Below, one piece after another: positions 5,664 through 63,803 of a DNA stretch of 64,000 nucleotides. The DNA lies in the IMG/VR virus record IMGVR_UViG_3300033149_002985, positions 28,966-92,965 of that record; one strand, written 5' to 3'. Below the pieces are notes generated by a model, which made no database searches, had not been told where the DNA came from, and worked only from the letters and a program-made list of their open reading frames with translations. The translations under genes and the position numbers were made by a program. How positions within the stretch are numbered: position 1 is the stretch's first letter; each line of letters begins with the position of its first letter. This stretch comes from a virus.

Positions 5664-5674
5664 GAGGTCATAAA

Positions 5675-12594: not shown

Positions 12595-12596
12595 TA

Positions 12597-33573: not shown

Positions 33574-33586
33574 ACGTTTTCTCCTT

Positions 33587-33787: not shown

Positions 33788-33807
33788 CTTATTTCTCCTT
33801 TTTATTA

Positions 33808-33836
33808 AGTATACCACATTTCAATGAGTTTAGCAA
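33808..33836 (-). promoter_or_regulatory. Sigma-70-type promoter, leftward
   Basis: On the minus strand, TTGCTA (33836-33831), a 17-base spacer ending TGTGG, and TATACT (33813-33808), with the TG just upstream of the -10 as in the other promoters here. It sits between two leftward genes and probably drives the Mre11/Rad50 block. Confidence 0.75.
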
Positions 33837-33848
33837 ATATTATTACCT

Positions 33849-39990: not shown

Positions 39991-41103
39991 TTATTTCTCC
40001 TTTTTAGGTCTACCTCTTCCACGTTTTTTCTTAGGTTTAACAGATTCTTCTTCTAATGCTTTTTTAAATTCAGGATCTCTTTCAGCACGCTTTTTTACAG
40101 TTTCTTTAAAATCTCTTGTAAGGGGTTTTTTTTTAAAATTTTCTTGCTCCGCAATTTCTTTTTCTTCTTCTTCGATTTCTTTTTTTAAATGTTCTGGTAA
40201 ATAAAATCCACTCTCATAATAATAAGGAAGTCTTAATTCTGTTCTCTCTTGTGCCATCCCATCAATTTGACACATATCCACTTTTAAAACAGATTCAAAT
40301 CCTGTTTGTATAGTTTCATACGATTTATTTCCAGTAGGTGTTAATTTTCCTGTATCTACTTTTTTATTTGGTGCATTCGCTTTCTGACCTCGCATTATAT
40401 GAACAATTCCCTTTGAATAATGAATCAATGCGTTCCCACCGCTTAATTTTTGAATTGGGAAAAATCCACCTAAATCTACTCTTGTTTGTCCAATTAAGAT
40501 AACAGCAACATTAGCCCTTTTAACAGGGTCAATTGCCATTTTAAAAAACTGAGATAACTTTCTTGCCAATAATGCCATCGTGTCTTTTGCAACACTTTTA
40601 TCACCCTTTTTATCTTCTTGTTCTCCCTTTGGAGACAAAGAATGGATCGAATCTAAAATAATCACATCTACTAATTTTTTCCTTGAAAATTCAATAATAG
40701 TATCTAAAGATTGTTCAGCTTGTGGAAATTCTCCAATCATAAGGAGGTCAGGATCAACCCCGAATTTCATGGCTCTAGCTTGGTCATAAGGCTCTAAAGC
40801 AATGTAATAGACTAGTTTACCCTCTTTTTGGGCGGAAGCTGTTATCATGTGTGCTAGGGTGCTTTTCCCTGTTCCGCTTGCCCCCCAAAATGTAAAGAAG
40901 TTGCCATAAGGCAACCCACCACCCAATAGGTTATCTATTGGTTCAAATCCCACAGGAATTTTTTCCACCTTACGGTGTTCATCCCCAAAATGAAGAGTAT
41001 CCATCCCATGTTCTTTGTTAATTTTTCGAGCCGTCTTTTTTAATATTGCTAATCGCTCTGCATTATCTTTATATTCATATGATTCAATAGGGTTTTTAGG
41101 CAT
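39991..41103 (-). CDS. RecA/UvsX-like recombinase with basic tail
   Basis: A 370-residue protein. FEPIDNLLGGGLPYGNFFTF leads into Walker A FWGASGTGKSTLAH (about 71-84), VDVIILDSIHSLSP is Walker B, and VAVILIGQTRVDLGGFFPIQ plus KLSGGNALIHYSKGI match the L1/L2 region of RecA-type strand-exchange proteins. The last 20 residues are basic with RGRGRPKK, an AT-hook-like minor-groove motif. Likely the phage recombinase. Confidence 0.88.
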   Translation of the reverse strand: MPKNPIESYEYKDNAERLAILKKTARKINKEHGMDTLHFGDEHRKVEKIPVGFEPIDNLLGGGLPYGNFFTFWGASGTGKSTLAHMITASAQKEGKLVYYIALEPYDQARAMKFGVDPDLLMIGEFPQAEQSLDTIIEFSRKKLVDVIILDSIHSLSPKGEQEDKKGDKSVAKDTMALLARKLSQFFKMAIDPVKRANVAVILIGQTRVDLGGFFPIQKLSGGNALIHYSKGIVHIMRGQKANAPNKKVDTGKLTPTGNKSYETIQTGFESVLKVDMCQIDGMAQERTELRLPYYYESGFYLPEHLKKEIEEEEKEIAEQENFKKKPLTRDFKETVKKRAERDPEFKKALEEESVKPKKKRGRGRPKKEK

Positions 41104-41854
41104 TATTGGTTCCTTTCAACATTAAATTATACTCAGTTGCCATGATATGATGATAATTATTTTTATGAATATCCGCTTCTATTGTATATCCTCTAATTTT
41201 TCGCCATTTAGTAATAGATTTTAATTTTGTTAATCTGATTCTTACTGAAGCATAATATCTAACATATTTATCAAAAGATACTGTTTGTTGTTTTGTTTTT
41301 AAATTCCATCGAATCTGATTTAAACATAGTAAAGTCACATCTGTATCATCAATCATAGTCATAACATCTTTTAACATTGTCCCTATCATTTGTTCCTGAA
41401 CTTTATAATCTCCAAAATCATTTTCTAATTCATTAATAGATGGTAATGCTGACATCGAATCAATAACAATTAAATCTACTAAATCATGTTCAACATGATA
41501 AACTATTATCTGTATTGCCATTTCTCCACATGTTGGAGTACATACTAATAATTTGTTTAAATTTATACCGGCATGTTTTGCATATATCTGACTAAGATTT
41601 CTTTCAGCATCAATATAAAGAACAATTAAATCTTGTTTCTGAGCATTAGCAATAATATCATATGCTAATAATGTTTTACCTGAACCTGCTTCTCCAGAAA
41701 TTTCTATTGTTTTTCCTTTAGGAATACCATTAATCCCTAATGCTTTATCTAGTTCTTCATGTCCTGTAGAAATAACTTTTAAATCTCTAGGCTTCTTTGG
41801 AAAAATTCCAAACTTTTTTTGAAAATCATTTAAAATATCATCTATTTTGGTCAT
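41096..41854 (-). CDS. Second RecA-like ATPase
   Basis: A 252-residue protein with ISTGHEELDKALGINGIPKG, Walker A EISGEAGSGKTLLAYD (about 51-66), VLYIDAERNLSQIYAKHAGI and Walker B LVDLIVIDSMSALP. It is shorter than the recombinase in the next gene and lacks the basic tail. The two overlap by eight bases. It may be a paralogue that loads or regulates the other. Confidence 0.85.
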   Translation of the reverse strand: MTKIDDILNDFQKKFGIFPKKPRDLKVISTGHEELDKALGINGIPKGKTIEISGEAGSGKTLLAYDIIANAQKQDLIVLYIDAERNLSQIYAKHAGINLNKLLVCTPTCGEMAIQIIVYHVEHDLVDLIVIDSMSALPSINELENDFGDYKVQEQMIGTMLKDVMTMIDDTDVTLLCLNQIRWNLKTKQQTVSFDKYVRYYASVRIRLTKLKSITKWRKIRGYTIEADIHKNNYHHIMATEYNLMLKGTNNA

Positions 41855-43852: not shown

Positions 43853-44079
43853 TATTGCTCCAATTGTTTTGATTGAATTAATTTAATTGTTCTTGAATAA
43901 TTTCCAATTCCAACATAATCTCCATCACATTGAAAAAATTCTAAATCTTCAATACCTATTTTTTGTTGCATTTCTTTTTCTAAAATACCCACTTGACCGT
44001 AGAATTCATCTTCTAAATCTTGTAATTTTTTCCAATAAGGTTTTAATTTTTTAACCATATCTCTAGATAACTTTTTCAT
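43852..44079 (-). CDS. Small helical protein
   Basis: A 75-residue protein (LKPYWKKLQDLEDEFYGQVG). Coupled to the PrimPol-helicase gene by a four-base ATGA overlap. No family recognised. Confidence 0.6.
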   Translation of the reverse strand: MKKLSRDMVKKLKPYWKKLQDLEDEFYGQVGILEKEMQQKIGIEDLEFFQCDGDYVGIGNYSRTIKLIQSKQLEQ

Positions 44080-46106
44080 GGTTTATCCTTTTCTATTTTA
44101 TCTAATCTTGTTAATTTACCAGTTTTCCAATCATAAACCATAGGAATTTCAAATACTTTACCTTTAACTTTTGGTTCTCTTATTTTATCAATTTTAAATT
44201 TTCCATAAGTACCATCATCAGATTCGTATAAATATTTACAAGCAAGCGCAGGTCTTTGTTTAATCATGTTTGGTGCAAACCAACCTGGTTCTGGATGTTC
44301 TTTAGTAGGTTCTTTTAATTGGACAAATACAATTAGAATACCTTTGGCTTTTTCAACTTTTTTTGCCAGTTCTTTAAAAAGCTTATTAGTTTCTGCAAAG
44401 TTTGGGGGGTCTATCCAATCCCAAATTACAACAGATCCTTTTTTAAATTCCACATCATCAACATCATCAGTAACTGTTTCTGGACGATAAAAATCACCAT
44501 CTTTTAAACCCAAAGATAATGCTTTGTTTTTAAATCTTCCTCCATTTTCAGAATAAATATAGTACGGTTTAATTCCTTGTTGAATAAAATTTTCAACAAA
44601 ATTCATAGCAATTGTGGTTTTTCCAACTGCCGTCAATCCTCCTAAAATTATCATGTCCCCAAAATTAAAATGAGCATAGTCATCAAAATAAGGCATTTTA
44701 AAATCAATCGGAATACCTACTTCAGTAATATTGTCAGACCAATTCATGTCCTCTACAATTTTATAATATCTACGTTCAGACTTTAATTTCCCTTGTTTTA
44801 TTAATTGAACAAGAGTAGCATCTATTTTTTTCTTTTCTTCACCTTTGACTCTACCTCCTAATACTGCAATTTCAATATCGGTTTTTGAAGTTGTTCCTGC
44901 CCTACTAACATATTCTAAAATTTCCATTTCTAGTTTTGTTTGGTAAGCATCATCATATTTATTTAAGCTTCTCATCATGGCTCGGATTTCTTGAGTATCA
45001 AGTGGAGTTTTACATATTCTAGGATTTAATCCATGTAAAGTATATTCTACTTGGTCAGGGCTCATTCTCTTTAATAAATAACCACCTAAACTAGTAAAAA
45101 AAGAATTTCTTCCATCCCCATCATCCAATAAATCTAAATGAATAACTTCTGCTTTTATATTGTTATTAGCTTCTGCTAATGTGTGATTATCATCATAAGT
45201 CTGAGTAGGAGCATGTTCTATCAATAAATCTTCTAGAACTTCTGGCATTTGTGAAATAGGATTATCATTTATAAATCTTCTAGAGGCATATCCAACAATA
45301 CGTTTTCGCTTTACTTCATTTTCAATATATTCTTCTTTAACAGCTACTTCTGGAGCAGGTTCTACTACTATTTGTCCACCATCATTTTCTACATCTATAG
45401 CATAAGCATCAAATTTAATTCGACATTTTCTAATATTAATATATTTATAAATTAAATGAAACCCTCCTAATGTTTCTTGAATCCAAGGATCTCCCATTAT
45501 TTTTTTAATTTCCTCTGGAATTTTCTTTTTAGCTAAAATTTTATCTTTAACTTTTTGTGGAGTATCTTCTTTCACCAATAAAATTTTTTCTTCATTTGTT
45601 AAAATATCGATATCAACAACTGTTATTCCACTGACTTCTCCTGTTCTTACTCCTACGTTCAATCCATTAACAATCCAACTTGCCCATTCTTCTTTATTTC
45701 GATTTTCTTTATTTGTCCAATTACTTTGGACTGGATTTTTATCTTTTTTCGCAAGAGGTACTAAACAAAAATTCTCTTTTTCATATCTGTTTAAAATAGC
45801 TTCTAATTTTTCTTGATCCTTTTTTGTTTGTACATCTAATTCTAAAAGACCTCGTAAATATTCTAAAATCTCCTCATCGGAATCATTTCTACATTCGTGT
45901 TCTCTAACAAGTTCAATTAAATTAAATTTTTTATGAGAACATTTTAAACAATTAATCAAAGAAGTATTCGGAATAACACTAGCTGTTAGATCATGAGTAT
46001 CACAATATGGACATTCCAACATAATTATATTTCCAGTTTTTTTCGCTGGATATCCAATTTTTTTACAATATTCTAATATTTTTGATAAAATAATTTGACG
46101 GTACAC
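44076..46106 (-). CDS. Primase-polymerase/helicase fusion protein
   Basis: A 676-residue replication protein. Residues 30-60 have LECPYCDTHD and INCLKCSH, a zinc-binding primase-type finger. Residues about 108-255 form a PrimPol domain (FCLVPLAKKDKNPVQSNW; VGVRTGEVSGITVVDIDI with catalytic DxD; GGFHLIYKY). A helical primase C-terminal part and winged helix follow. Residues about 480-660 are a RecA-type ATPase with ILGGLTAVGKTTIAMNF (Walker A) and VVIWDWIDPP. It probably primes and unwinds DNA for the polymerase. Confidence 0.88.
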   Translation of the reverse strand: MYRQIILSKILEYCKKIGYPAKKTGNIIMLECPYCDTHDLTASVIPNTSLINCLKCSHKKFNLIELVREHECRNDSDEEILEYLRGLLELDVQTKKDQEKLEAILNRYEKENFCLVPLAKKDKNPVQSNWTNKENRNKEEWASWIVNGLNVGVRTGEVSGITVVDIDILTNEEKILLVKEDTPQKVKDKILAKKKIPEEIKKIMGDPWIQETLGGFHLIYKYINIRKCRIKFDAYAIDVENDGGQIVVEPAPEVAVKEEYIENEVKRKRIVGYASRRFINDNPISQMPEVLEDLLIEHAPTQTYDDNHTLAEANNNIKAEVIHLDLLDDGDGRNSFFTSLGGYLLKRMSPDQVEYTLHGLNPRICKTPLDTQEIRAMMRSLNKYDDAYQTKLEMEILEYVSRAGTTSKTDIEIAVLGGRVKGEEKKKIDATLVQLIKQGKLKSERRYYKIVEDMNWSDNITEVGIPIDFKMPYFDDYAHFNFGDMIILGGLTAVGKTTIAMNFVENFIQQGIKPYYIYSENGGRFKNKALSLGLKDGDFYRPETVTDDVDDVEFKKGSVVIWDWIDPPNFAETNKLFKELAKKVEKAKGILIVFVQLKEPTKEHPEPGWFAPNMIKQRPALACKYLYESDDGTYGKFKIDKIREPKVKGKVFEIPMVYDWKTGKLTRLDKIEKDKP

Positions 46107-46834: not shown

Positions 46835-46993
46835 CTAATATATAATCATCGTATCTGAATTTGAAACCTGTTCTTTATAGGAGTTATGATTAGCTTCTGC
46901 TTTTTGAATTCTTTCTTTATCACCTGAGAGCCTTGCTTCTCCTAGTTCTTTTGCATACATCATGAGTGTTTTAAAAAAAGTAACGGTTTTCAT
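46835..46993 (-). CDS. Small helical protein
   Basis: A 52-residue protein (VTFFKTLMMYAKELGEARLS). Overlaps the peptidase start by four bases. Unknown. Confidence 0.55.
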   Translation of the reverse strand: MKTVTFFKTLMMYAKELGEARLSGDKERIQKAEANHNSYKEQVSNSDTMIIY

Positions 46994-48069
46994 TTTTCTA
47001 TTACACTCCTCAATTTAGATGATAATAAGAAATTAGTTAATAATTTTGTACCTGATAATAAATCACCAAAATTAATAGTTTCAACGGGCGTATGCATTGA
47101 TCGTAGAGGTATACCCATAACTAAAGCCCTTATTCCTTTAGCCTCTCCTGTCATATCAACAGAAGTATAACCTACATTATCATAACATGCTTGGTATTGT
47201 ACTTTCACTTTACTATTTTTTGCTACATTTGTCATTAAATTTAAAGATGGCTCGTGAATCCCTAATCCTCTATATAGTGTCATTCCTTTTCCAAGATGAC
47301 ATTTACCAACTTCCAAATCCATATCTGAACCTTTTCCGTAATCGGTTGCAAAGGTCACATCCGCTTCAATAATTAAATCTGGTTTATGTTCCCTAACAAT
47401 GGGGCGTAATTTACTTGTTCCTGTTTCTTCTTGTGAACTAAACGTAAATATTAAATTAACAGGTGGTTTTTTCTTACTTGCTACTATTTGTCTGATTGTT
47501 TCTAATAAAATAAAACAGCCAGATTTATCATCAAAGCCGTATCCTGCATAATAATTGTTAACTAATTGATGAAATGATGGCTTATAAACTACAGGATCTC
47601 CTATTTTTACATGTCTAGATACTTCTCGACGTTTTCGAATTCCAATATCAACTTGTGCATCAGCAATACTAACAATGGTTTCATTGTCTTCATCATTGAC
47701 TAAGTGTGCATGCTTTCTGTTTACAACCGCATTAATATTTCCTTTGTTACCCAAAATAGTTAAATGGCGTGCACTAAGAATTGAATTGTCACCACCGCCA
47801 ATGTAATTAATGCTAATATATCCCTCATCGGAAATGTTAGTAACCATAAAACCGATTTCATCGGCATGAGCATCTATAATTACTGTTCTATCAGTTTTTC
47901 CTGGAATTGTTGCAATAACATTTTTTTGAAAATCTATTTGTACCTTAGATTTAGGTAAAAATTTCAACAGTTCTTGTCGAATAAAACCAGCAATATCATC
48001 CTCAAATCCAGATGGAGAAGGTATCTCTATCAAGGATCGTAATAAATTAAGTTGTCTATTTGTTCGCAT
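46990..48069 (-). CDS. M42-family metallo-aminopeptidase
   Basis: A 359-residue di-zinc peptidase. VIIDAHADEIGFMV (63-76) has His68 and Asp70, YGFDDKSGCFILLE (177-190) the bridging Asp, SSQEETGTSK (211-220) the catalytic Glu pair, IEADVTFATDY (234-244) an Asp ligand, and RSMHTPVETI near residue 330 the final His. The full set fits the PepA/FrvX group, which removes N-terminal residues and assembles as large shells. Such a gene is unexpected in a phage. It heads a run of peptidase genes. Confidence 0.9.
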   Translation of the reverse strand: MRTNRQLNLLRSLIEIPSPSGFEDDIAGFIRQELLKFLPKSKVQIDFQKNVIATIPGKTDRTVIIDAHADEIGFMVTNISDEGYISINYIGGGDNSILSARHLTILGNKGNINAVVNRKHAHLVNDEDNETIVSIADAQVDIGIRKRREVSRHVKIGDPVVYKPSFHQLVNNYYAGYGFDDKSGCFILLETIRQIVASKKKPPVNLIFTFSSQEETGTSKLRPIVREHKPDLIIEADVTFATDYGKGSDMDLEVGKCHLGKGMTLYRGLGIHEPSLNLMTNVAKNSKVKVQYQACYDNVGYTSVDMTGEAKGIRALVMGIPLRSMHTPVETINFGDLLSGTKLLTNFLLSSKLRSVIEK

Positions 48070-48081
48070 AATCTCTCCTTT

Positions 48082-48210
48082 TTATACCCAAAATAACATA
48101 GCATTAACTATAGTTAAAAGAACTCCTATGAATTTTAATTTAAGAGTTGGGGCTTGAATTGATACTCCAAAATATCCTATTAACATTAACCAGTAAAATA
48201 ATTTATACAT
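48082..48210 (-). CDS. Small membrane peptide
   Basis: A 42-residue, strongly hydrophobic frame with two helices (LFYWLMLIGYFGVSIQ; KFIGVLLTIVNAMLFWV). It overlaps the next membrane-protein gene by eight bases. Confidence 0.55.
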   Translation of the reverse strand: MYKLFYWLMLIGYFGVSIQAPTLKLKFIGVLLTIVNAMLFWV

Positions 48211-48469
48211 GATTTTTCCTTATATCCTTTTTCTTCCAACAAAAAATTGCTTTTATGTTCAATAATATTAATAATGAAGATAACACAAATAAACTAGGAA
48301 TAACTAGCATTAAACTTTGAATAATATACATAAAATTGCCTAAAATATTTGCATAAAATCCTTTAATATTTTTATTTCCTATCATACAAATACCCCATAG
48401 AAAAAATATATTACCTATCCAACCTGCAATATCAGGAATATTATCAATGTAAGATGAAAATATATTCAT
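48203..48469 (-). CDS. Three-span membrane protein, semiSWEET/PnuC-like layout
   Basis: An 88-residue protein with three hydrophobic helices (IAGWIGNIFFLWGICMIGNK; ANILGNFMYIIQSLMLVIPS; LFVLSSLLILLNIKAIFCWK). The GxxxF, GN and N positions recall small transporters of the semiSWEET or PnuC type, but this is only a resemblance. Sits among peptidase genes. Confidence 0.5.
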   Translation of the reverse strand: MNIFSSYIDNIPDIAGWIGNIFFLWGICMIGNKNIKGFYANILGNFMYIIQSLMLVIPSLFVLSSLLILLNIKAIFCWKKKDIRKNHV

Positions 48470-49032
48470 TATTTTGGCTTTTTCTTGTAATATCCTTGTT
48501 GTAATCTATTCAATAAAGTAATTAAATTTATAGGTGTATAATTAAGATGTTCGGCACTAACATTAATAAATGTACATCTTCTTTTCTTTTGAATAAATGG
48601 TGTTGAATTATGTTGATGTCCATGAATCACATAATGATATTTAGTTAAATCTGGAGTTTTTACATCATGAGGACTATGAACAAATAAAATTTTCTTGTTA
48701 TTAAAATCCCACGAAAAAGTATCACAAATAAAATCAATTCCATGAGTCAAATACCAAGAATATGTTTTACGATCATGATTACCATGCACAAGAATTTTAC
48801 GTCCATTTAAAGTCATAATAATTTTTGCAATCTCTTGGCTCGTTCCTTTTGTGAATACCAAATCACCAACAATTATAACGATATCATGTGGTCTTACTAT
48901 CGTATTCCATCTTTTAATTTGTGTATCGTCCATATGTTTAAGAGATTTAAATCCTCTATTACATAATTTATTAACATTCCAATCATTGAAATGAGAATCA
49001 CTGATGATATATATATTTATTAAAGGTTTCAT
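48469..49032 (-). CDS. Calcineurin-like phosphoesterase
   Basis: A 187-residue protein. YIISDSHFNDWN (8-19), IVIIVGDLVFTKG (about 51-63), KILVHGNHDRKTY (about 79-91), ILFVHSPHD and YVIHGHQHNSTP carry the metal ligands in order. A compact phosphoesterase related to bacterial small-phosphoesterase proteins; the substrate is not known. It starts one base from its neighbour. Confidence 0.85.
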   Translation of the reverse strand: MKPLINIYIISDSHFNDWNVNKLCNRGFKSLKHMDDTQIKRWNTIVRPHDIVIIVGDLVFTKGTSQEIAKIIMTLNGRKILVHGNHDRKTYSWYLTHGIDFICDTFSWDFNNKKILFVHSPHDVKTPDLTKYHYVIHGHQHNSTPFIQKKRRCTFINVSAEHLNYTPINLITLLNRLQQGYYKKKPK

Positions 49033-49042
49033 ATTTTCTTTT

Positions 49043-49693
49043 CTAAAACCATACCCAAATAAGTAAAGGAATTTGAATTAGTAATAATATCCAAAAACAA
49101 ATCTTAGTAATTATAGTATATCTTTTAATAAATTTTTCTTTCCATATTTTTTCCATTAACACTAACCATAAATGACCTCCATCTAAAGCAGGAATAGGTA
49201 AAATATTTGCAATAGCACAGAAGAAATTAAGCAATCCTAATTGTAAAAGTGTAAAATTTGCACCAACATTATTAGATGCAAGAAATAATATATCCATATT
49301 CGTATATGTTTTTACAAATGTAGATTTAATCAACATCCAATCTATTTGCATTCCGATTAAGATTGATTTATAATTTATCAAATAACAAATACAAGCTATA
49401 ATAAAATTAACTGCGATACCTGCTATAAGGATTAAAAATTTCTTAAAATATTTTTGATTTAGAAAATCATCAGAACATTTTTTTGAATCCATTCCTTTTA
49501 AATCACAATATCCTCCTATTAACCAAGGACTTATTCTATAATCAATCCCTTTAATAGTTTTATGTAAATAAGGTTTCCAAAATCCTACTGAAAAAGTTTT
49601 TACTCCAACTCCACATTTTAGCGCAACAAGCATATGTGCTAGTTCATGGATGAAAATTGTAAATAATAAACAAGCAAAAAATTCGAACCACAT
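49043..49693 (-). CDS. Site-2-type intramembrane metalloprotease (M50)
   Basis: A 216-residue, four-span protein. TIFIHELAHMLVAL (12-25) contains the HExxH zinc site (His16, Glu17, His20) within the first helix. AGIAVNFIIACICY (91-104) is the conserved second segment. NILPIPALDGGHL (163-175) holds the NPxPxxDGG-type motif with Asp171. No PDZ domain is present. M50 proteases cut membrane anchors of regulators. Its ATG overlaps the S1 protease stop. Confidence 0.88.
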   Translation of the reverse strand: MWFEFFACLLFTIFIHELAHMLVALKCGVGVKTFSVGFWKPYLHKTIKGIDYRISPWLIGGYCDLKGMDSKKCSDDFLNQKYFKKFLILIAGIAVNFIIACICYLINYKSILIGMQIDWMLIKSTFVKTYTNMDILFLASNNVGANFTLLQLGLLNFFCAIANILPIPALDGGHLWLVLMEKIWKEKFIKRYTIITKICFWILLLIQIPLLIWVWF

Positions 49694-50430
49694 TAATTTT
49701 CCTCAATTTCTTTCTCGGTTTTTTCTTCGATTGGATCGGGAATATTTTTAAAAGTATTAACTTTTTCAGAATATTCAATGTCTAATAATTCAGAAATATC
49801 TTCTAAAAAATCTCTTATATCTGAAGTTGGTTCATATAGAACAATTTCTTCTTTATAAGTATCAAATCCGCCCCATAAAACCCCAGTTAATTCTGATTGG
49901 TTATTAAAAATTCCACCACCAGAACAACCGCCACGACTATTTAAATATGCAAAATGATCTCTATCTGTTTTTCTATAAACTACTCCAGAGGATAAATATT
50001 GATGTCCTTCTGGATATCCCAAATGATGAATTTCTTGATCTAAATATGCAGTATATTTTGATAAAACTGCTACTTTTTTATTTTTAATCATACCATCAAC
50101 TATTACATAAGCCAAATCATCTGTTGTAGAAGTAATAATTAATCGTGCTTTCTTATGATCGACATAGAATTCTTCGGTTCGATGAATACAATGTTTAGCA
50201 GTTAATACATGATGATTACCTTTGACTTCATTTATAATAGTGCCACTACAAGAGCCAAGTCTAGCATCACCAACACTAAAAAATTCTACTGTTATTTGTT
50301 CTAATTCTTTTTTTAAACTTTGAGTGCCACTGTAAACAGGTTTTTTTTCACCAAATAAAATAGACAAATCAAATTGGGGTGTTATAATAGCTATAGCAAA
50401 TATCATTAAATAAGATAATAATTTTTTCAT
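49693..50430 (-). CDS. Secreted trypsin-like serine protease (S1)
   Basis: A 245-residue protein. Residues 1-26 form a signal peptide or membrane anchor (LLSYLMIFAIAIITPQF). The catalytic triad is His80 in VLTAKHCIH, Asp105 in STTDDLAYV and Ser170 in SRGGCSGGGIF, with oxyanion GxSGG. The C-terminal 40 residues are acidic and disordered. It overlaps the deformylase gene by four bases and the M50 gene by one. Likely acts outside the cytoplasmic membrane, perhaps as a site-1 partner of the M50 protease. Confidence 0.85.
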   Translation of the reverse strand: MKKLLSYLMIFAIAIITPQFDLSILFGEKKPVYSGTQSLKKELEQITVEFFSVGDARLGSCSGTIINEVKGNHHVLTAKHCIHRTEEFYVDHKKARLIITSTTDDLAYVIVDGMIKNKKVAVLSKYTAYLDQEIHHLGYPEGHQYLSSGVVYRKTDRDHFAYLNSRGGCSGGGIFNNQSELTGVLWGGFDTYKEEIVLYEPTSDIRDFLEDISELLDIEYSEKVNTFKNIPDPIEEKTEKEIEEN

Positions 50431-50891
50431 AATTGCTCCTTTATTCTATCTATAAAAAGAATCCCATCCCAATGATCTAATTCATGTTGTACAACGATAG
50501 CTTCATAACCAGAAAATGTAAGAATTTCTTCATCTCCATTTTTTATTAAAATCCAATTATAGCGCATAGTATCTTCAAATTTTCCTGGTAAGGATAGACA
50601 ACCTTCTCCTTTAAACATTCCTAATTGTTTTTTATTCAAGATTTTTGCATTATAAAGATTATAAGAATTTAACTTTTTTTCTTTTTTTCCAAATCGTTTA
50701 TAAGTTTGTTCTATTCGTATTACTGTAACTTGATAAGGAATACTTATTTGAATAGCACTTAATCCACTTCCTTTGACTTTATGAGTAGATAACTCATGAT
50801 CTAAACAATCAAAAAGAGATTGTAATTCTTCTTTCGTACCTTTGAAAGATTCACTTACTTGTCTCAATGTTTCTAAATTTTCAGTTATCAT
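50427..50891 (-). CDS. def: Peptide deformylase
   Basis: A 154-residue protein with all three PDF motifs: GSGLSAIQ (41-48), GEGCLSLPG (95-103) and VVQHELDHWDG (133-143). Cys98, His136 and His140 bind the metal and Glu137 is catalytic. It would remove N-formyl groups from new proteins. Motif I differs (SAIQ for AAPQ), as in some phage enzymes. Phage deformylases are known from marine cyanophages. Confidence 0.92.
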   Translation of the reverse strand: MITENLETLRQVSESFKGTKEELQSLFDCLDHELSTHKVKGSGLSAIQISIPYQVTVIRIEQTYKRFGKKEKKLNSYNLYNAKILNKKQLGMFKGEGCLSLPGKFEDTMRYNWILIKNGDEEILTFSGYEAIVVQHELDHWDGILFIDRIKEQL

Positions 50892-51469
50892 TTATTTTTC
50901 CTTTTTCTAGCAATAAAATCAACTACTCCTTTTGCTTTAGCTTCATTAGCCCATAAATGAAGTTCTGTATTTTTAGATTTTTCTATATCGTCGTTGGTTA
51001 AACAGGTACGAGATTTTATATATTTTTCCATCATTTTTCGTCTTGGTTTAATATATTGAGACATTCTTGCCTCTTCTTTTCCAACCCAATCACCGCCACT
51101 ATCTATCCAAAGATCGTGAATCATCCAATATGAGTGCTCTGTTATAACCCGTTTAGATCCTGCAAGGGAAATTAGAGCACCCATACTTGAAGCCGCCCCA
51201 TTTATAAAAGTATAAACAGGAGATGCTAATCCAAAAATAGTGTCAATAATAGCAAAACCACAGTCAACCGAACCTCCGACAGAGTTAATCCAGAGACCAA
51301 TTGGTTCATTGTTTATTTCATTTAAACCAATCAAATCTTCACAGACCCGTTTGCCCATATTCACATCTATTGTACCATGTAACAGGATATTTCTTGAGTG
51401 TAATAAGAGTTGAGGTATATCTATCTCATATTCTAATTTGTCAAATTTATTTTTGTCTTTTTCAGACAT
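50888..51469 (-). CDS. clpP: ClpP-like serine protease
   Basis: A 193-residue protein with IGLWINSVGGSVDCGFAIID (57-76), INGAASSMGALISLAG (89-104; Ser95 nucleophile) and YWMIHDLWID (114-123; His118). The usual Asp position near ELHLWANEAKAKGVVDFIA reads ELH instead of RDx, so the third triad residue is uncertain. Phage ClpP homologues usually mature capsids, but no capsid gene is nearby; it may work with host chaperones. Sits next to the deformylase gene by a four-base overlap. Confidence 0.85.
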   Translation of the reverse strand: MSEKDKNKFDKLEYEIDIPQLLLHSRNILLHGTIDVNMGKRVCEDLIGLNEINNEPIGLWINSVGGSVDCGFAIIDTIFGLASPVYTFINGAASSMGALISLAGSKRVITEHSYWMIHDLWIDSGGDWVGKEEARMSQYIKPRRKMMEKYIKSRTCLTNDDIEKSKNTELHLWANEAKAKGVVDFIARKRKNK

Positions 51470-51478
51470 TAAAACTCC

Positions 51479-52006
51479 TTATTTTTTGACGTTAGTCAAC
51501 CCTCTTTGATAAATAGCATCGATAACATCATTAATACTATTTAAATCAACTTGTCCAGTTAATGCTTTAACAGCTTCACAAGCAGAAGCATAAACACTCA
51601 ATCTCATAATCTGAGCACTTTCTTTTGGAGTTTTGGGATTCATATAATTTTTTGCTGGTGCAGGTATTCCAGTTGATACAGGAGGTACATACGTCTGTTG
51701 TACTTGCTGATTAACAGGAGGCGTATATGGCTGTTGTGTTACTGGTGCAGATTGGGGTTGTTGATAACCCTGTGGAGCTCCGCCTGCTGGTTCAATTCGA
51801 CTGACATTATATTTATTATTTACAAAATCAGCAGTTAAAATAACAGCTTGACCTTCCTGAAATGCTTTGCTTGCAAAATTTTTAACATTTTGCGGACAAT
51901 CTGCCCATTCGCCTTCAGGTTTACGACCTGGAATAATAACTTTAATCATTTCACATCCTGGCTTTTTTGCCGACCTAATAAATTGTGCTTGTACTTGTTG
52001 ACTCAT
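51479..52006 (-). CDS. OB-fold-like protein, possible ssDNA-binding
   Basis: A 175-residue protein. The N-terminal part (AVILTADFVNNKYNVSRIEP) is beta-rich and OB-like. A Pro/Gln-rich linker (about 78-125) follows, then a conserved helical tail (MRLSVYASACEAVKALTGQV). The layout, folded N-terminus plus flexible linker and C-terminal tip, recalls single-stranded DNA-binding proteins. Role inferred, not proved. Confidence 0.6.
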   Translation of the reverse strand: MSQQVQAQFIRSAKKPGCEMIKVIIPGRKPEGEWADCPQNVKNFASKAFQEGQAVILTADFVNNKYNVSRIEPAGGAPQGYQQPQSAPVTQQPYTPPVNQQVQQTYVPPVSTGIPAPAKNYMNPKTPKESAQIMRLSVYASACEAVKALTGQVDLNSINDVIDAIYQRGLTNVKK

Positions 52007-53128: not shown

Positions 53129-53569
53129 TTATTTTTTCTTTAATTCTTCGTGAGCATAACCATCTACATTAAATTTCAATGCCATTAATGCTTCGATCAT
53201 TGTAATTTTCTTACCAGTTTTTTTATCAACTCTTTTATATCCTCTATGTAAAGCCCACACATCAAGATAATGACGAAACATAGATTTAATATAAGCATTT
53301 TGGGGGATACCTTTTTGCCAATTATCAGAATCTCTTAATTCACCATTAGACTGTTTTCTATGAACAGTCATATAATCACCAAATGCTTCTAAAACAGGAT
53401 AACTCAAAAAACCTTCATAATCGTTTTTTCCTTCATCTGTATCTCTTGTAGCTCCTGATTTAAATTCTCTAATCTTTTTCTTAGATTTTTCCACAAAAGG
53501 GTTTTTTACTTTTGAATTAATTCGTCTTTTTTTTGATGCACCAGCTATAAATAATTTATTTTTTGTCAT
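53129..53569 (-). CDS. DUF5664/dATP-dGTP diphosphohydrolase-like protein
   Basis: A 146-residue protein with SGATRDTDEGKNDYEGFLSY (38-57), FGDYMTVHRKQSNGELRDSD (about 63-82), NWQKGIPQNAYIKSMFRH and DVWALHRGYK. These match the phage family annotated DUF5664 or dATP/dGTP diphosphohydrolase N-terminal region. It may adjust nucleotide pools with MazG and the deoxyribosyltransferase. The enzymatic label is from memory of the family, not shown here. Confidence 0.65.
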   Translation of the reverse strand: MTKNKLFIAGASKKRRINSKVKNPFVEKSKKKIREFKSGATRDTDEGKNDYEGFLSYPVLEAFGDYMTVHRKQSNGELRDSDNWQKGIPQNAYIKSMFRHYLDVWALHRGYKRVDKKTGKKITMIEALMALKFNVDGYAHEELKKK

Positions 53570-53882
53570 TAGTATCCTTCTTTGGTTTGTATTCTAATTT
53601 TAAAATTCCATTTACTTCATCTCTCAAAATCTTCAAATTATCAACTCTCATAATCTCTAAATAATCAATTACTTTTTTACAATTTTCACAGATTTCATAA
53701 TGCTTAGTACTTTTTTCATATATATCATTTTTCTTTTGAAACATGTTAAGAGCTTTTTCCAAAGTCACAAATTCAAGTAACTTATTTGTTAGTTTTGGAA
53801 TCTCTGCTTCAGTAATCGATAAATAATAAATTTTCTTTACAATGATTTCTTTACAGAAATCACATAATTTTTGATCAGCCAT
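53556..53882 (-). CDS. Zinc-binding protein with two CxxC pairs
   Basis: Start set at MADQKLCDFC (53882); a longer frame overlaps the upstream gene. 108 residues with CDFCKEII and YEICENCKKVIDYL, a four-Cys ribbon at long spacing around a helical segment. Unknown. Confidence 0.6.
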   Translation of the reverse strand: MADQKLCDFCKEIIVKKIYYLSITEAEIPKLTNKLLEFVTLEKALNMFQKKNDIYEKSTKHYEICENCKKVIDYLEIMRVDNLKILRDEVNGILKLEYKPKKDTNDKK

Positions 53883-53893
53883 TTGTAATCCAA

Positions 53894-54514
53894 TTATTTT
53901 AATTTGCAGTCTGCTTTGACTTGAGTAACACATTCATTGATTGTACGAAATACTCTAATTGCTTTATTATTTGAAATTTGCGTACCAAATATTAAAGATG
54001 AATTTGATTCTGTTGGTGGAGCATCAGGTACAACCAAATAAATAGGAATTCTAAATAAAAAAGCAAAAACAACTTCGAAATGGGTTCCTACTGTTTTAAT
54101 TGAAGTAGGATGATAAACAATAATAAAATCGCTCCGAATAACTGCCTCAAAATCTCCCCAACTAACAATTTCACTTCTGCGATTACCATCAATATGTTTT
54201 CTCATTCTCAGATTAATTCCTAATTGGATTAAATCTGTATTTTGATTAATATTACCAAACCAAATTTTCCACATTCTTTCAAAGAAAATATCCCAATGAC
54301 CACCTCTTTTAAGCCCTTGAATATGTTTTATATGATCCCCTGGATTTGCTCCGACTTTACTTGCTTCTTGAGCCACAGGACTATAGATTAAAAGATCTTC
54401 ATGTTGTAATTTTTTCATAAAGGTTTCTCTGAAATCTATCATTTCTTTTTTGCTAACATTTTCCATTCCGCCTGCTAAGTAGGTTGTCCATTTTATTGGT
54501 TGTTCTTCTGACAT
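53894..54514 (-). CDS. Nucleoside 2-deoxyribosyltransferase-like protein
   Basis: A 206-residue protein with TTYLAGGMENVSKKEMIDFR (10-29), YSPVAQEASK, SWGDFEAVIRSDFIIVYHPT (about 127-146) and VGTHFEVVFAFLFRIPIYLV. The order fits the NDT fold, which exchanges bases on deoxynucleosides or cleaves nucleoside bonds. In phages it could feed or alter dNTP pools. The Glu in GTHFEV is a good candidate catalytic residue. Confidence 0.78.
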   Translation of the reverse strand: MSEEQPIKWTTYLAGGMENVSKKEMIDFRETFMKKLQHEDLLIYSPVAQEASKVGANPGDHIKHIQGLKRGGHWDIFFERMWKIWFGNINQNTDLIQLGINLRMRKHIDGNRRSEIVSWGDFEAVIRSDFIIVYHPTSIKTVGTHFEVVFAFLFRIPIYLVVPDAPPTESNSSLIFGTQISNNKAIRVFRTINECVTQVKADCKLK

Positions 54515-54528
54515 TTTGTCTCCATTAT

Positions 54529-54627
54529 TTAATCTTCATTTCTTGTACAAGTCCATGCAACAAAGCTAAAAGAAAGCATCATCATACAAAAACAAAATAA
54601 CATTAAATAAAATGCTCCATCTTCCAT
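54529..54627 (-). CDS. Single-span membrane peptide
   Basis: A 32-residue peptide, one helix (FYLMLFCFCMMMLSFSFVAW). It fills the gap between two clear genes. Moderately likely to be real. Confidence 0.45.
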   Translation of the reverse strand: MEDGAFYLMLFCFCMMMLSFSFVAWTCTRNED

Positions 54628-54972
54628 TTAAACATCTCCATTTTCAAGAATTTTATCATTCTCATACATTGCTATTTCATCATCATAACTTTCCATGATG
54701 TCTATAAATTCTGTCTTTAAATTTATATTTAATCTTCTTTTTATTTCTTTGTGGCATCTTATTAAACATCCTGTCATATCATTATATTTTTGATAATTTG
54801 GAACTGCCCCTAAAAAATCATCGACATAACAAACAATTGCTCTAATACTATAGTTTAGTTGATTATTTTTAATATAAGAAAAAATCTGGTAATTTAATTC
54901 TCCAGCGTTTTTCGCTATAGCAATAGTTCTTAATTCTTGTCGTCTATTATTTTCATCTCTAATATAAGGCAT
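54628..54972 (-). CDS. Conserved phage protein (GELNYQI...ENGDV type)
   Basis: A 114-residue protein beginning MPYIRDENNRRQELR, with AKNAGELNYQIFSYIK, MTGCLIRCHKEIKRRLN and ending YENDKILENGDV. This is a widespread phage and plasmid family (DUF6899-like) of unknown function. It overlaps no neighbour. Confidence 0.75.
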   Translation of the reverse strand: MPYIRDENNRRQELRTIAIAKNAGELNYQIFSYIKNNQLNYSIRAIVCYVDDFLGAVPNYQKYNDMTGCLIRCHKEIKRRLNINLKTEFIDIMESYDDEIAMYENDKILENGDV

Positions 54973-54974
54973 AA

Positions 54975-55211
54975 TTATTTCTCCGTGATTTCTCCATTTT
55001 TTAAATGTCCACCATAAGTTTTACCATTTTTCTCTTGGACATCTTTCATCTCTTCCATATCTCGATAAAGACGATCAACCAAATCTTGAGTAAGTCCACA
55101 AGCAAATTCTCTGTTTGTTGGATTGTTTTCATCTCTAACAATTTTTATTGATTTAGAGATTAATTTTATATCATCAAGTAATTTTTCAAAATCATAACGA
55201 TTAAGAGACAT
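54975..55211 (-). CDS. Small acidic protein
   Basis: A 78-residue helical protein (RYDFEKLLDDIKLISKSIKI; RLYRDMEEMKDVQEKNG). AATGTCTC-type spacing places it two bases from the next gene. Not recognised. Confidence 0.6.
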   Translation of the reverse strand: MSLNRYDFEKLLDDIKLISKSIKIVRDENNPTNREFACGLTQDLVDRLYRDMEEMKDVQEKNGKTYGGHLKNGEITEK

Positions 55212-55213
55212 GT

Positions 55214-55684
55214 TTAATCTTTCGTTTTTGCTTCTTTAAGTTTGGATTCAAAATCATAATCATAAAGATATTTCAAATCATCATAATTCTGAATATCACG
55301 AACATTATCAAAAATTTCCCTTAATATCTTTCGGAAACCAGTTGCTTTGCCTGTTTCAAACATACGTTCATAATTTCTTTGATATCTTGCAAATTTTCCG
55401 TTCTTTAACCACGTATTACCATAGAGATTACAAACCTCATGTCGTAAATCCCTACTTAATAAACTTATATCTTTTAAAACATCACCAAATGTTTTTTCCT
55501 CTGTCTTCTTTTCTTTAATAATTTTAACTAAAGAACGGATTGTTTCACCACACCTTAAACTATTATTAAACTGCTTGAGTATCTCTTTAGTGTCTATTTC
55601 TGCCGTTTTCATTGAATCTACTTTAAGAGTTTCTTCCCACTCACTATGGGCGTCTTTTATGATACATCTTATTTCCATCGACAT
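55214..55684 (-). CDS. Helical protein, unknown
   Basis: A 156-residue protein with charged helices (TAEIDTKEILKQFNNSLRCG; FARYQRNYERMFETGKATGF). It is in the operon behind the promoter at 56429. No family recognised. Confidence 0.6.
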   Translation of the reverse strand: MSMEIRCIIKDAHSEWEETLKVDSMKTAEIDTKEILKQFNNSLRCGETIRSLVKIIKEKKTEEKTFGDVLKDISLLSRDLRHEVCNLYGNTWLKNGKFARYQRNYERMFETGKATGFRKILREIFDNVRDIQNYDDLKYLYDYDFESKLKEAKTKD

Positions 55685-55688
55685 CCTT

Positions 55689-56297
55689 TTATTCTTCTGC
55701 TCTTAATTTATTAATAATCTTTTTAGATTCTTTGCTTGATATAGACTTAGAAATTTCTGCCATCATATCATCTGCGCCTTGTTGATAAATTTTTCTTTCT
55801 ACGTCAGAATATTTATCACCGTTGCTTCGAATATATCTTTTACCTTTAGATATACCTCTTACTAAATCTCTTGCAACTCTTCCAGTGCCTCTTATAAGAC
55901 TAAAAATTGCACCAATAACCCAACCAAAACCACTCAAAGAAAGAGCTATCATTATAATAATTCCCCATAACACATAACCTTGAACATTTAAAATAAACTG
56001 TGAAATTTTTTCACGCCATCTTAATTTTCTTTCTTGTTGGTTAAAAGTCTTTTCATACGAATAATAATTTTGTCCGCATTTCAGAACTCTTCCCATAGAA
56101 TCTAAGATAATTTCTCCTTTACATTTGATCCTTTTTTCTGATTTTTCAATTTTTTCGGGAACTTTTGAAACGGTATTTTTGAAAGGTTGGGAAGCAATTT
56201 TAAGGAGGGAACAGCCTGTTAATGTAGACATAAAAATACATAACATCATTAATTGCAACATGTTATGCTTAAAAAGGTGGTAAATTTGATTTTTCAT
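55689..56297 (-). CDS. Lipoprotein with internal membrane span
   Basis: A 202-residue protein from ATG 56297. Residues 1-28 are a signal ending in a lipobox (TLTGC, Cys29). Residues about 102-133 are a long hydrophobic segment (YVLWGIIIMIALSLSGFGWV). A basic linker and helical C-terminus follow. One lipid anchor plus one membrane span is like unimolecular spanins, but here the span is internal, so that is only a possibility. First gene after a strong promoter. Confidence 0.65.
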   Translation of the reverse strand: MKNQIYHLFKHNMLQLMMLCIFMSTLTGCSLLKIASQPFKNTVSKVPEKIEKSEKRIKCKGEIILDSMGRVLKCGQNYYSYEKTFNQQERKLRWREKISQFILNVQGYVLWGIIIMIALSLSGFGWVIGAIFSLIRGTGRVARDLVRGISKGKRYIRSNGDKYSDVERKIYQQGADDMMAEISKSISSKESKKIINKLRAEE

Positions 56298-58653: not shown

Positions 58654-59439
58654 TTATTTTATCTTTTTTAAATATTTTTTCTTTAATTCTTCTGTGCATA
58701 TTTTAAGATATTTTTGAGTAGATTTTAAATTTTTATGCCCAAGAAGTTTTTGGATTTCTGGAAGACTAAATCCTTCTTTTAATAACCATGTTGCAAACGA
58801 ATGACGCAATAAATAAGGTCGTAAATTAAAATCAGGAAAATGTTTTTTGATTTTTTCACACATTCTTCCTAATGCTCTTGTCGTGGTATTAAAAGCATTG
58901 GTTTTTTCATATTCCAAAATAAAATATATCTTCATTAAATCACTTACTTTTTCTGGAAACAGAAAAATATGTTCAGTTTTTGTTTTTTGCCTATAAATCT
59001 TTCCCTGTAAATTTTTTAAATCAAAGTTTTTCCTTTTTAAAGCAACAATTTCACCTGGACTTAATCCACTATAAAAAATTAAATAAAAAATGGCTATAAT
59101 TTTTTCATTTTTTCTCCAATTTTGTTTAATAATTGGAACAATTTCTTTTTCAAATTGTTCGATAGTAATAGCATCTACCAATTTTTCATCTTCATCTAAT
59201 GCTGGAGGCATTTCAATATCTATTTTTTTCCATTCTATATAAGCACAAATAGCATTTCGATAACAATTGATTGTTTTATTTACATGTGTTCCTTGTAATC
59301 CAAGTAAATATCTATCTACAGTTTCTTTAATAACGACATTATTAGTCGCTTTTAAAAAATCTCTTATCCTTTGACAATATCCTCTTCGAGTATTATGAGA
59401 TCGTCCTTTTAATTTTAACCAATCATTAAAATTATTCAT
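58654..59439 (-). CDS. Tyrosine recombinase (integrase/XerC-like)
   Basis: A 261-residue protein. Residues 1-75 are a SAM-like core-binding domain. The catalytic part has IFYSGLSPGEIVALKR (121-136), QKTKTEHIFLF (151-161), RPYLLRHSFATWLL (207-220; Arg212), LLGHKNLKSTQKYL (232-245; His235, nucleophile Tyr244). The position of the first catalytic Arg (GLR) reads GLS, so catalysis may be impaired or rerouted. Roles could be integration, dimer resolution or end processing. No attachment-site pair was found beside it. Confidence 0.85.
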   Translation of the reverse strand: MNNFNDWLKLKGRSHNTRRGYCQRIRDFLKATNNVVIKETVDRYLLGLQGTHVNKTINCYRNAICAYIEWKKIDIEMPPALDEDEKLVDAITIEQFEKEIVPIIKQNWRKNEKIIAIFYLIFYSGLSPGEIVALKRKNFDLKNLQGKIYRQKTKTEHIFLFPEKVSDLMKIYFILEYEKTNAFNTTTRALGRMCEKIKKHFPDFNLRPYLLRHSFATWLLKEGFSLPEIQKLLGHKNLKSTQKYLKICTEELKKKYLKKIK

Positions 59440-61052: not shown

Positions 61053-62315
61053 TTATCCTTTCACAACAGCTAATGGTTTTAATTTCACTACAATATCTAC
61101 TAAATCTTTTTGTTCTTCCATAATAACATCAATGTCTTTGTAAGCACTCGGAGCTTCATCTAAATTAGATTTATGTCGAACCGAATGGATAATCCCTTGA
61201 TCGTTTAATAATTTTTGTTCATCTTCTAAATTTAATTCGTTTCGTGCTTTCTTTCTACTCATTTTTCTACCTGCACCATGAGAGCATGAGGTAAAGGACT
61301 CAATATTTCCTTTCCCCTTAACAATATAAGATGATGTACCTTGTGAACCTGGAATAATACCTAATTCTCCTTCTTTAGCACTTGTAGCACCTTTTCTATG
61401 AATCCAAACATTTTTTCCAAAATGATTTTCTAACGAAGCATAATTATGATGGATATTGATTTCCTGTTCAAATTCTAATATTTTAGTTTTATTGAAATTA
61501 TGCACAACTTTAACAGTATTAAAACAAACTTTAATATCTAAGGCTTTACAAAATGCTTTTTTAATATTCTCTAACATATGTAATCTATTTGCATAGGCAA
61601 ACTCTAAACAATAATTCATTTCTCGAAGATAATTTTCGGCTTCTTTAGTTCCTATCGGAAGAAAAGCCAACCCATCTTCCCCTTTATATTCAGGGATATT
61701 TGAATGCCATTGTTTGCATAAATCCTGTGCTAATTTATTATAATGTTTAGCTACTTTATATCCTAAATTCCTACTTCCTGAATGGATCATTATCCAAATA
61801 AACCCATCATCTCCTTTTTGGATTTCTATAAAATGATTTCCACCACCTAATGTTCCTAACTGTTTTAAAGCCGATTTATATTCTTGTTCACAAATACTAA
61901 CATGTTCGCCTGTTTCATAACTTAATTCTATAATCTTCGGCATTAAAGATTCATTTTGAGCCTTTTTATGATGATTAAATCCAACAGGAATTAAACCTCT
62001 TATTCCTCCCTGATTTTCTTTAGAGCCACCTAAAATTGCTTTTAATTGTTCTGTTGATATCTCCTTCAAACTCGTTTTAACTGCACACATACCACAACCG
62101 ATATCAACCCCTACTGCATTAGGAATAATAACACCATTAGTAGCAATAACTCCTCCTATCGGCATTCCATAGCCTTGATGTACATCGGGCATTAATGCTA
62201 TATGCCTATAAATAAAAGGAAGAGAAGCCAAATTTCTAGCTTGATCTAAAGCCCCTTCTTCTGGATTATTACACCATGATTTAATAGGCACATTTTTGCC
62301 TTCAATTATTTTCAT
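61053..62315 (-). CDS. rtcB: RtcB-type RNA ligase
   Basis: Start set at MKIIEGKNVP (62315), after AAGGAGTAATAAA; a longer frame is rejected. The 420-residue protein has LMPDVHQGYGMPIGGVIA (41-58), GVDIGCGMCAVKT (69-81; Cys74 metal ligand), LGTLGGGNHFIEI, WIMIHSGSRNLGYK and SCSHGAGRKMSRKKA, whose His is the guanylylated residue. RtcB joins RNA 2',3'-cyclic phosphate to 5'-OH ends with GTP. It could repair tRNA cut by host anti-phage nucleases. Confidence 0.93.
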   Translation of the reverse strand: MKIIEGKNVPIKSWCNNPEEGALDQARNLASLPFIYRHIALMPDVHQGYGMPIGGVIATNGVIIPNAVGVDIGCGMCAVKTSLKEISTEQLKAILGGSKENQGGIRGLIPVGFNHHKKAQNESLMPKIIELSYETGEHVSICEQEYKSALKQLGTLGGGNHFIEIQKGDDGFIWIMIHSGSRNLGYKVAKHYNKLAQDLCKQWHSNIPEYKGEDGLAFLPIGTKEAENYLREMNYCLEFAYANRLHMLENIKKAFCKALDIKVCFNTVKVVHNFNKTKILEFEQEINIHHNYASLENHFGKNVWIHRKGATSAKEGELGIIPGSQGTSSYIVKGKGNIESFTSCSHGAGRKMSRKKARNELNLEDEQKLLNDQGIIHSVRHKSNLDEAPSAYKDIDVIMEEQKDLVDIVVKLKPLAVVKG

Positions 62316-62704
62316 TTTATTACTCCTTCTATACATGCCCGATATTCCATATCTACTGTTTGATCTATTGAACCTTTGGAAACAATAATACCAAGCCATT
62401 TATTAAGTTGTTGTTTTGTAATCCATTCTTCTGAGTCTTCCCTATTAGGAAACCAAGCAAAAGACCATGCTTTAGGAGGTATCATATCCAATTGTCTTTG
62501 TCTTTGTTTTTTGCGTTCTTTAAATGCCTTCTTTATAACAGATACCCCTAAGAAGTCAAGATACCCTAAACATTTAATCCCTATATCAATACCTCGTGCA
62601 GGGGCTTCAAAATGTGAGATTGTATGGCTTCCTTTACAATATTTAACTTTTAATCCTCTGCGAATTAGTTTTTTAACTATAACTTCTCGATCAAAGTTTG
62701 ACAT
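62312..62704 (-). CDS. Protein of unknown function upstream of RtcB
   Basis: A 130-residue protein (DREVIVKKLIRRGLKVKYCK; GSHTISHFEAPARGIDIGIK; FAWFPNREDSEEWITKQQLN). Basic and mixed alpha/beta. Its TGA overlaps the RtcB start, so the two are coupled. The family is not recognised. Confidence 0.6.
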   Translation of the reverse strand: MSNFDREVIVKKLIRRGLKVKYCKGSHTISHFEAPARGIDIGIKCLGYLDFLGVSVIKKAFKERKKQRQRQLDMIPPKAWSFAWFPNREDSEEWITKQQLNKWLGIIVSKGSIDQTVDMEYRACIEGVIK

Positions 62705-63286: not shown

Positions 63287-63412
63287 TTAAAATATTATCC
63301 TCCCATCTATATCTTGATTTAGATTATGCAATTTTTTTCTACATCTGTAATATAGTTTTTCAAACATTTCTTTTTCTTTTTTTAATTTTTGATAAGAAGT
63401 TATAGTTTTCAT
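63287..63412 (-). CDS. Small basic peptide
   Basis: A 41-residue, basic, helical peptide (KLKKEKEMFEKLYYRCRKKL). Overlaps the upstream stop as ATGA. The 31 bases between it and the next gene hold nothing obvious. Confidence 0.5.
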   Translation of the reverse strand: MKTITSYQKLKKEKEMFEKLYYRCRKKLHNLNQDIDGRIIF

Positions 63413-63612
63413 TTTATTCCCTTTTTCAAATCTTTTAATGTTGAATGATGATATTCATGCCAAGTAGCAAAATGAGTTAGCCAAACCTTAATAATATTGT
63501 CATTATTTTTATGATGTTTTTTATAATATTCTTTTGCATCTTTTACAGTTAAATCTTTTGTTATTCTATAACATTTACCATTTTTTCCTTTTGTGCGATA
63601 TGTAATCCACAT
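63409..63612 (-). CDS. Small protein, unknown
   Basis: A 67-residue, aromatic, basic protein (WITYRTKGKNGKCYRITKDL; WLTHFATWHEYHHSTLKDLK). AAAAGGAG precedes the ATG. No family recognised. Confidence 0.6.
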   Translation of the reverse strand: MWITYRTKGKNGKCYRITKDLTVKDAKEYYKKHHKNNDNIIKVWLTHFATWHEYHHSTLKDLKKGIK

Positions 63613-63668
63613 AAATTTACTCCTTTTCTTTTTGAATTAGACGATCTGTCATTGTGGATAAGATTTTC

Positions 63669-63776
63669 CTATTTTATTTCTGAAAGACTATTATCCGATT
63701 TTCTAGTAACAATAAAATATTTGCATTTAATATTAATTGATTTACCAGATTTAAAATTAATTTTTATCTTCGCTAT
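63669..63776 (-). CDS. Putative 35-residue frame with non-AUG start
   Basis: A frame (AKIKINFKSGKSINIKCKYF) runs from ATA at 63776 to TAG at 63669. GAGG lies seven bases upstream, but no AUG, GUG or UUG is in frame. The sequence is protein-like. It may use a rare start codon or reflect a base error. Confidence 0.3.
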   Translation of the reverse strand: MAKIKINFKSGKSINIKCKYFIVTRKSDNSLSEIK

Positions 63777-63803
63777 AGTATATTCCTCTTTCTTTTATTA
63801 TCA

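Follow-up and report, generated by a model that had tools for sequence, protein, structure and literature searches.

A phage gene block combining PDZ-less DegS-type and RseP-type proteases with ClpP, peptide deformylase and an M42 aminopeptidase

Introduction

Phages take over host transcription via sigma and anti-sigma factors. In Escherichia coli, σE is activated by proteolysis of RseA, which is cut by DegS and then, as a stub within the membrane, by RseP, before ClpXP degrades the released domain (PMC10202637). Disruption of the RseP PDZ domain allows RseA to be cut without site-1 cleavage (PMC10202637). Here we analyse a block of protease genes in a 64,000-nucleotide stretch (the window) of IMG/VR virus record IMGVR_UViG_3300033149_002985, covering bases 28,966–92,965 of the 92,965-base record. 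The record holds tape-measure, tail-fibre, neck, DNA polymerase, recombinase and clamp-loader genes and hence derives from a tailed phage. Like the DegS–RseP–ClpXP system, the block encodes an HtrA-type S1 protease with an N-terminal membrane segment, an RseP-type M50 protease and ClpP; the S1 and M50 genes are adjacent and the main catalytic motifs of the phage enzymes are intact. Unlike that system, the block is phage-borne, its membrane enzymes are PDZ-less, and an M42 aminopeptidase and a peptide deformylase (PDF) stand alongside. Moreover, no sigma factor or RseA/RseB-like gene was recognised in the phage record.

The component families are known, and their combination appears undescribed in the literature searched, in agreement with the initial annotation, which knew of no phage module with all five enzymes. 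Neither such a combination nor a phage site-2 protease was described there, most subscription journals lying outside the search. PDF and Clp protease are each known singly in phages. PDF occurs in a cyanophage (Frank 2013, cited in PMC7162821) and in huge phages; the window PDF shares motifs and phage origin with these, and differs in lying within an operon-like block with four proteases. Clp protease occurs in large bS21-encoding phages, with a proposed role in proteostasis (PMC9723584), whereas the window ClpP is adjoined by PDF, S1 and M50 and has Glu for the catalytic Asp. The M42 enzyme shares family and metal and catalytic residues with the aminopeptidases MJ0555, TET1 PH0519 and FrvX, but belongs to a separate phage clade, with ~30% identity to the cellular genes recovered. 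In BFVD, M50 has a single significant viral match by structure, UniProt A0A6J5SMS1 (Peptidase M50, uncultured Caudovirales phage, 184 aa); both are short M50 proteins, 20% identical to each other.

We propose, with a probability of roughly 0.45, that the block would act as a host-takeover proteolysis cassette with a membrane arm and a cytosolic arm. The proposal builds on observed genes with intact motifs and predicted folds, and on their linkage and recurrence.

Five enzymes in one same-strand block

Five enzyme families lie within 4.5 kb of the minus strand, read from 51469 to 46990 (window positions):

50888–51469, minus strand: ClpP-type serine protease, 193 aa (Pfam CLP_protease, 3.6e-30)
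50427–50891, minus strand: PDF, 154 aa (Pep_deformylase, 5.2e-27; GSGLSAIQ, EGCLS, QHELDH)
49693–50430, minus strand: HtrA/DegS-type S1 protease, 245 aa (Trypsin_2, 1e-7; triad His80/Asp105/Ser170)
49043–49693, minus strand: RseP-type M50 intramembrane metalloprotease, 216 aa (Peptidase_M50, 3.8e-35; HELAH 16–20, LDG 170–172)
46990–48069, minus strand: M42 aminopeptidase, 359 aa (Peptidase_M42, 1.5e-58)

PDF, a deformylase and not strictly a protease, is counted among the five. The open reading frames (ORFs) stand at exactly the positions given by the initial annotation, all on this strand and each above its curated Pfam cut-off. The main catalytic motifs that it had called intact are present, and the catalytic residues of the five enzymes are invariant in the alignments made with relatives.

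The ORFs are tightly joined, by overlaps of 1–8 bases or gaps of 10–12 bases. ClpP/PDF and PDF/S1 overlap by 4 bases each, S1/M50 and phosphoesterase/88-aa protein by 1 each and the 88-aa/42-aa pair by 8, with gaps of 10 bases between M50 and the phosphoesterase and 12 between the 42-aa protein and M42. The longer same-strand series, spaced by −8 to +14 bases, runs from a FEN exonuclease through a 175-aa protein, ClpP, PDF, S1, M50, the phosphoesterase, the two small membrane proteins, M42 and small genes to MazG and a primase. A GGAG/AGGA-like ribosome site precedes most starts in the block; a promoter scan was uninformative (38 found, 43.7 expected). Five random positions would cluster this tightly with p ~1e-5 on 93 kb, and with p ~5e-4 on a 70-kb relative, values that assume uniform placement and come from a test chosen after the fact. 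Recurrence of the set in three other contigs carries more weight.

The S1 and M50 proteases lack PDZ domains

The S1 triad (H80, D105 and S170) is invariant in the alignment. The S1 profile matches the catalytic domains of MucD, DegS, DegQ and HtrA1 at ~1e-18, and the top fold matches of its AlphaFold2 model (predicted local distance difference test score, pLDDT, 79.8) are Deg1 and DegS-deltaPDZ. A hydrophobic segment spans residues 4–26, and the seven relatives examined also have an N-terminal hydrophobic segment, consistent with an export signal or membrane anchor. A Pfam scan found no C-terminal PDZ domain.

In M50, H16, E17, H20 and L170-D171-G172, the signature of the site-2 protease family, are invariant across six sequences. 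Profile comparison with solved RseP gives 8e-25 to 5e-24, and Foldseek places the AlphaFold2 model (pLDDT 86.6) on RseP at ~2 Å over ~110 columns, with 26–33% identity; both comparisons identify an RseP-like core with the membrane-reentrant β loop. The protein aligns with RseP minus the RseP PDZ insert. There is no Pfam PDZ match in M50, and 216 residues leave no room for one. Because the PDZ between core transmembrane segments is absent, we do not file the enzyme as a group I (RseP-type) site-2 protease. The phage block described in the initial annotation is real and recurrent; that annotation missed the likeness of S1 and M50 to DegS and RseP and their want of PDZ domains.

Such a pair might also serve counter-defence, destroying small membrane toxins or other abortive-infection membrane effectors, with ClpP disposing of antitoxin or defence proteins. 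RseP is known also to clear small membrane proteins, HokB among them (PMC10470546), and the phage M50 amounts to a core of the same type without PDZ. The island proteins match PADLOC entries only weakly and in part, however, and we regard this role as improbable.

Catalytic residues of ClpP, PDF and M42

Ser95 and His118 of ClpP are invariant. The third triad position, which the earlier motif list lacked, is an invariant Glu169 in the window and the aligned relatives and aligns with the catalytic Asp of cellular ClpP. PDF has all three of its motifs (GxGLxAxQ, EGCLS and HExxH), their residues invariant in the alignment. Invariant His68, Asp181, Glu214/Glu215, Asp237 and His326 in M42 preserve the dinuclear metal site and the catalytic Glu. 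The best solved relative of M42 is the putative aminopeptidase MJ0555 (1e-53); an M42-based host search of a genome collection found only cellular genes, which are ~25–34% identical.

ClpP-like head maturation proteases exist, and the window ClpP also matches PHROG families of them. Maturation of phage proteins was one of three roles offered by the initial annotation, together with dismantling of host proteins and rewiring of envelope signalling. As a role in processing structural proteins it is very improbable: by profile comparison the nearest solved chains to the window ClpP are cellular ClpP, and the block sits among replication genes, far from the tail genes found, which occupy the opposite end of the record. 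Envelope signalling is the suggestion that best fits the S1–M50 pair.

The set recurs between FEN and primase genes

Two conserved genes flank the block, one of them separated from ClpP by a protein that also lies beside ClpP in contigs L003, L018, L020, L036 and L045:

52021–52875, minus strand: FEN-type 5'-3' exonuclease, upstream flank (5_3_exonuc_N, 7.3e-14)
51479–52006, minus strand: 175-aa protein, upstream flank (no Pfam match)
44076–46106, minus strand: primase/helicase-type replication protein, downstream flank (phrog_1156 DNA primase, 2.2e-12)

Family searches of 21 records showed the complete five-family set in G000, G014 and G016, and an M50 scan added a fourth record, G072 (L036); in all four, the five genes lie between the FEN and primase genes. 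Besides the window, the full set thus stands between the same flanks in three other diverged virus contigs. Gene order varies: ClpP-PDF-S1-M50-...-M42 in the window, ClpP-S1-M50-PDF-...-M42 in L018 and ClpP-S1-...-PDF-M50-...-M42 in L020 and L036. L002 and L003 hold four of the five (ClpP, S1, M50 and M42) without PDF. L045 carries ClpP and PDF with a pair of S1 genes. Among more distant contigs, PDF, M50, ClpP and a BT1-type transporter stand together in L064 and L038, and part of this set in L037/L076 and L039. The module first claimed is upheld in these contigs; in outer relatives, its genes are scattered or missing, which partly fulfils what the initial annotation had named as a refutation.

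M50 directly follows S1 in the window, L002 and L018, with overlapping reading frames in the window and L002, and a single 42-aa ORF separates the two in L003. S1 is present in 12 of the 14 M50-bearing records tested, the two without it being fragments of 21.7 and 33.0 kb. In the huge-phage record G019 (318,373 bases; 53421–56009 and 63373–63801), M50 and PDF lie within ~2 kb of each other, with S1 ~8 kb off and M42 elsewhere. Annotated phage records gave few matches. No M50 match spans more than 64% of the protein, and most are in short unannotated fragments or labelled bacterial RseP; many of the M42 matches are in short fragments deposited as phage.

An assembly chimera with host DNA had been named as a possible refutation and would suit enzymes of cellular families. 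It is extremely improbable, and we reject it: G+C along the window is even (24–32%), the block keeps its synteny in independent contigs, and the cellular relatives of M42 found are distant.

Of the genes in the block, M42 has the widest distribution. Relatives with 47–61% identity occur in eight other viral contigs, and a wider search brought the total to 20 loci, three of them distant at ~30%; in two huge phages, no island genes neighbour the M42 loci examined. In L064, where no M42 was found, the gene between M50 and the transporter encodes an M17 leucyl aminopeptidase. The spread of M42 and the M17 enzyme of L064, with the BT1 transporter in relatives and MazG nearby as signs of a metabolic region, agree with bulk recycling of host proteins into amino acids for the phage. 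ClpP with an aminopeptidase is a plausible peptide-recycling route, to which S1 and M50 might only add envelope proteins, or clear signal-peptide remnants, without any signalling. We consider this a doubtful alternative, since it does not account for the repeated association between S1 and an intramembrane protease, and no oligopeptide transporter was seen.

L045 also carries, at 12589–13440, the gene for 3-deoxy-8-phosphooctulonate synthase (KdsA), an enzyme of Kdo (3-deoxy-D-manno-oct-2-ulosonic acid) synthesis for lipopolysaccharide (LPS), and G017 has a gene of the KdsA Pfam family near S1 (33416–34180). Together these suggest LPS-bearing hosts within the group, which is not evidence on the window phage's own host. 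An LPS-bearing host would offer the S1–M50 pair a periplasm in which to act.

Exchange, ancestry and selection

The S1 genes of the slot fall into well-supported separate lineages. L002, L003 and L018 form one; the window S1 groups with L209, L029, L025 and others; L020 and L036 form a third. A single group of all six slot S1s was rejected by the approximately unbiased (AU) test (p-AU 7e-7, log-likelihood cost 150), a p-value to be read cautiously since the group was named after the identities were seen and the sequences are divergent. Because the slot S1s are not one clade, the slot appears to have been refilled. Tandem S1 genes in L045 (8173–9992) sit on different branches of the same tree. 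Elsewhere, S1 adjoins MgtC in G004, G015 and G071, at a distance from any M50 that the record has. In L006, L019 and L021, M42 is the sole member of the five in the FEN–primase interval.

Subsets, reordering and the S1 tree rule out a fixed, inherited five-gene unit. Judged by gene content and trees, the block is a lineage-specific, exchangeable cassette. Descent of the window M42 from the L005/L006/L019 lineage was also considered; the M42 and primase trees differ, but agreement between them is not rejected by AU tests (p=0.19 and 0.096), and we claim no transfer. Pairwise ratios of non-synonymous to synonymous substitution (dN/dS) for the five genes are 0.12–0.39 where computable, with synonymous sites near saturation, and by this measure the genes are under purifying selection.

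Variation of this kind raises the prospect that the FEN–primase interval is an accessory-gene hot spot gathering useful single genes, the five being neighbours only through shared ancestry and local recombination. Order and content do vary, the genes are scattered in outer relatives, and unrelated MgtC, BT1 transporter, LOG, ImmA-like, GNAT and KdsA genes pile up in the same interval. Nevertheless, this explanation is unlikely. The apparent refilling of the S1 slot and the substitution of an M17 enzyme favour maintained function over hitch-hiking alone. In a control, moreover, just four of 50 viral records with PDF gave an M50 match, and it adjoined PDF only in the two that belong to this group. 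S1 accompanies nearly every M50-bearing record tested while often occurring without M50, an asymmetry that we count as evidence for more than ancestry.

A proposed membrane arm and cytosolic arm

In the proposed host-takeover cassette, the membrane arm would begin with the exported, PDZ-less DegS-type S1 protease cutting the outer part of single-pass membrane proteins of the host (or phage). The stub left behind would next be cut within the membrane by the PDZ-less RseP-type M50 protease. PDZ domains hold DegS and RseP back until a stress signal arrives; lacking them, the phage pair would be constitutively active, with anti-sigma factors and further regulators of the envelope as natural targets. 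In the cytosolic arm, ClpP with a host Clp unfoldase would break down what the membrane arm releases, along with further host proteins; trimming of the peptides to amino acids would fall to the M42 aminopeptidase (M17 in L064), and PDF might remove formyl groups that would block aminopeptidases, or keep pace with translation. Here we infer co-expression, substrates, cleavage order, constitutive activity and the partner ATPase. That PDZ-less S1 and M50, with ClpP as the final step, would form a signal-independent phage cascade of regulated intramembrane proteolysis, freeing host sigma factors or envelope regulators at will during infection, is possible, though rather unlikely.

Several points weigh against the cassette. 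Group II and IV site-2 proteases lack extra domains by nature (PMC10202637), so PDZ absence need not mean deregulation. The third triad residue of ClpP is Glu instead of Asp, and no unfoldase is present among the annotated genes, no search having been aimed at unfoldases. Neither a Sigma70_r2 match nor a recognisable anti-sigma-like protein was found in the record, leaving room for a host partner. S1 occurs without M50 in several relatives and lies far from it in G015 and G071. Shared ancestry accounts for part of the linkage, and the interval also gathers many other accessory genes in a small, fragmentary sample.

If the cassette works as proposed, proteolytic control of membrane-held regulators would be a new phage takeover route, and recurrence in several diverged contigs makes this testable. 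Natural minimal PDZ-free pairs of site-1 and site-2 proteases would also provide material for testing the role of PDZ domains.

Interleaved and neighbouring genes

A phosphoesterase and two small membrane proteins are interleaved at 48082–49032, just as first annotated:

48469–49032, minus strand: calcineurin-like phosphoesterase, 187 aa (Metallophos_2, 4.9e-10; phrog_547, 3.4e-33)
48203–48469, minus strand: small membrane protein, 88 aa (hydrophobic segments; NMN_transporter 0.0024, below cut-off)
48082–48210, minus strand: small membrane protein, 42 aa (hydrophobic segment)

The phosphoesterase is conserved in some relatives (58% identity in L003), and the 42-aa protein has a homologue in L002 (58% identity over 41 aa). 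Weak PnuC-like/PQ-loop-like similarity tentatively groups the 88-aa protein with a PQ-loop protein of L018.

In L002, L003, L018, L020, L036 and L045, the FEN–primase interval holds MgtC-family, BT1-type (folate/biopterin family) transporter, LOG-type, PQ-loop, ImmA/M48-like and GNAT genes in varied combinations, several encoding membrane proteins. The FEN exonuclease gene of L036 is split by an intein with a LAGLIDADG domain (4776–6626), and an acyl-carrier-protein-like gene adjoins that of L002 (4637–4882). Finally, elsewhere in the window lie two neighbouring RecA/UvsX-like genes (39991–41854), a tyrosine recombinase (58654–59439; Phage_integrase, 3.6e-18), an RtcB RNA ligase (61053–62399) and a B12-binding-domain protein of the radical-SAM type (19493–20800).

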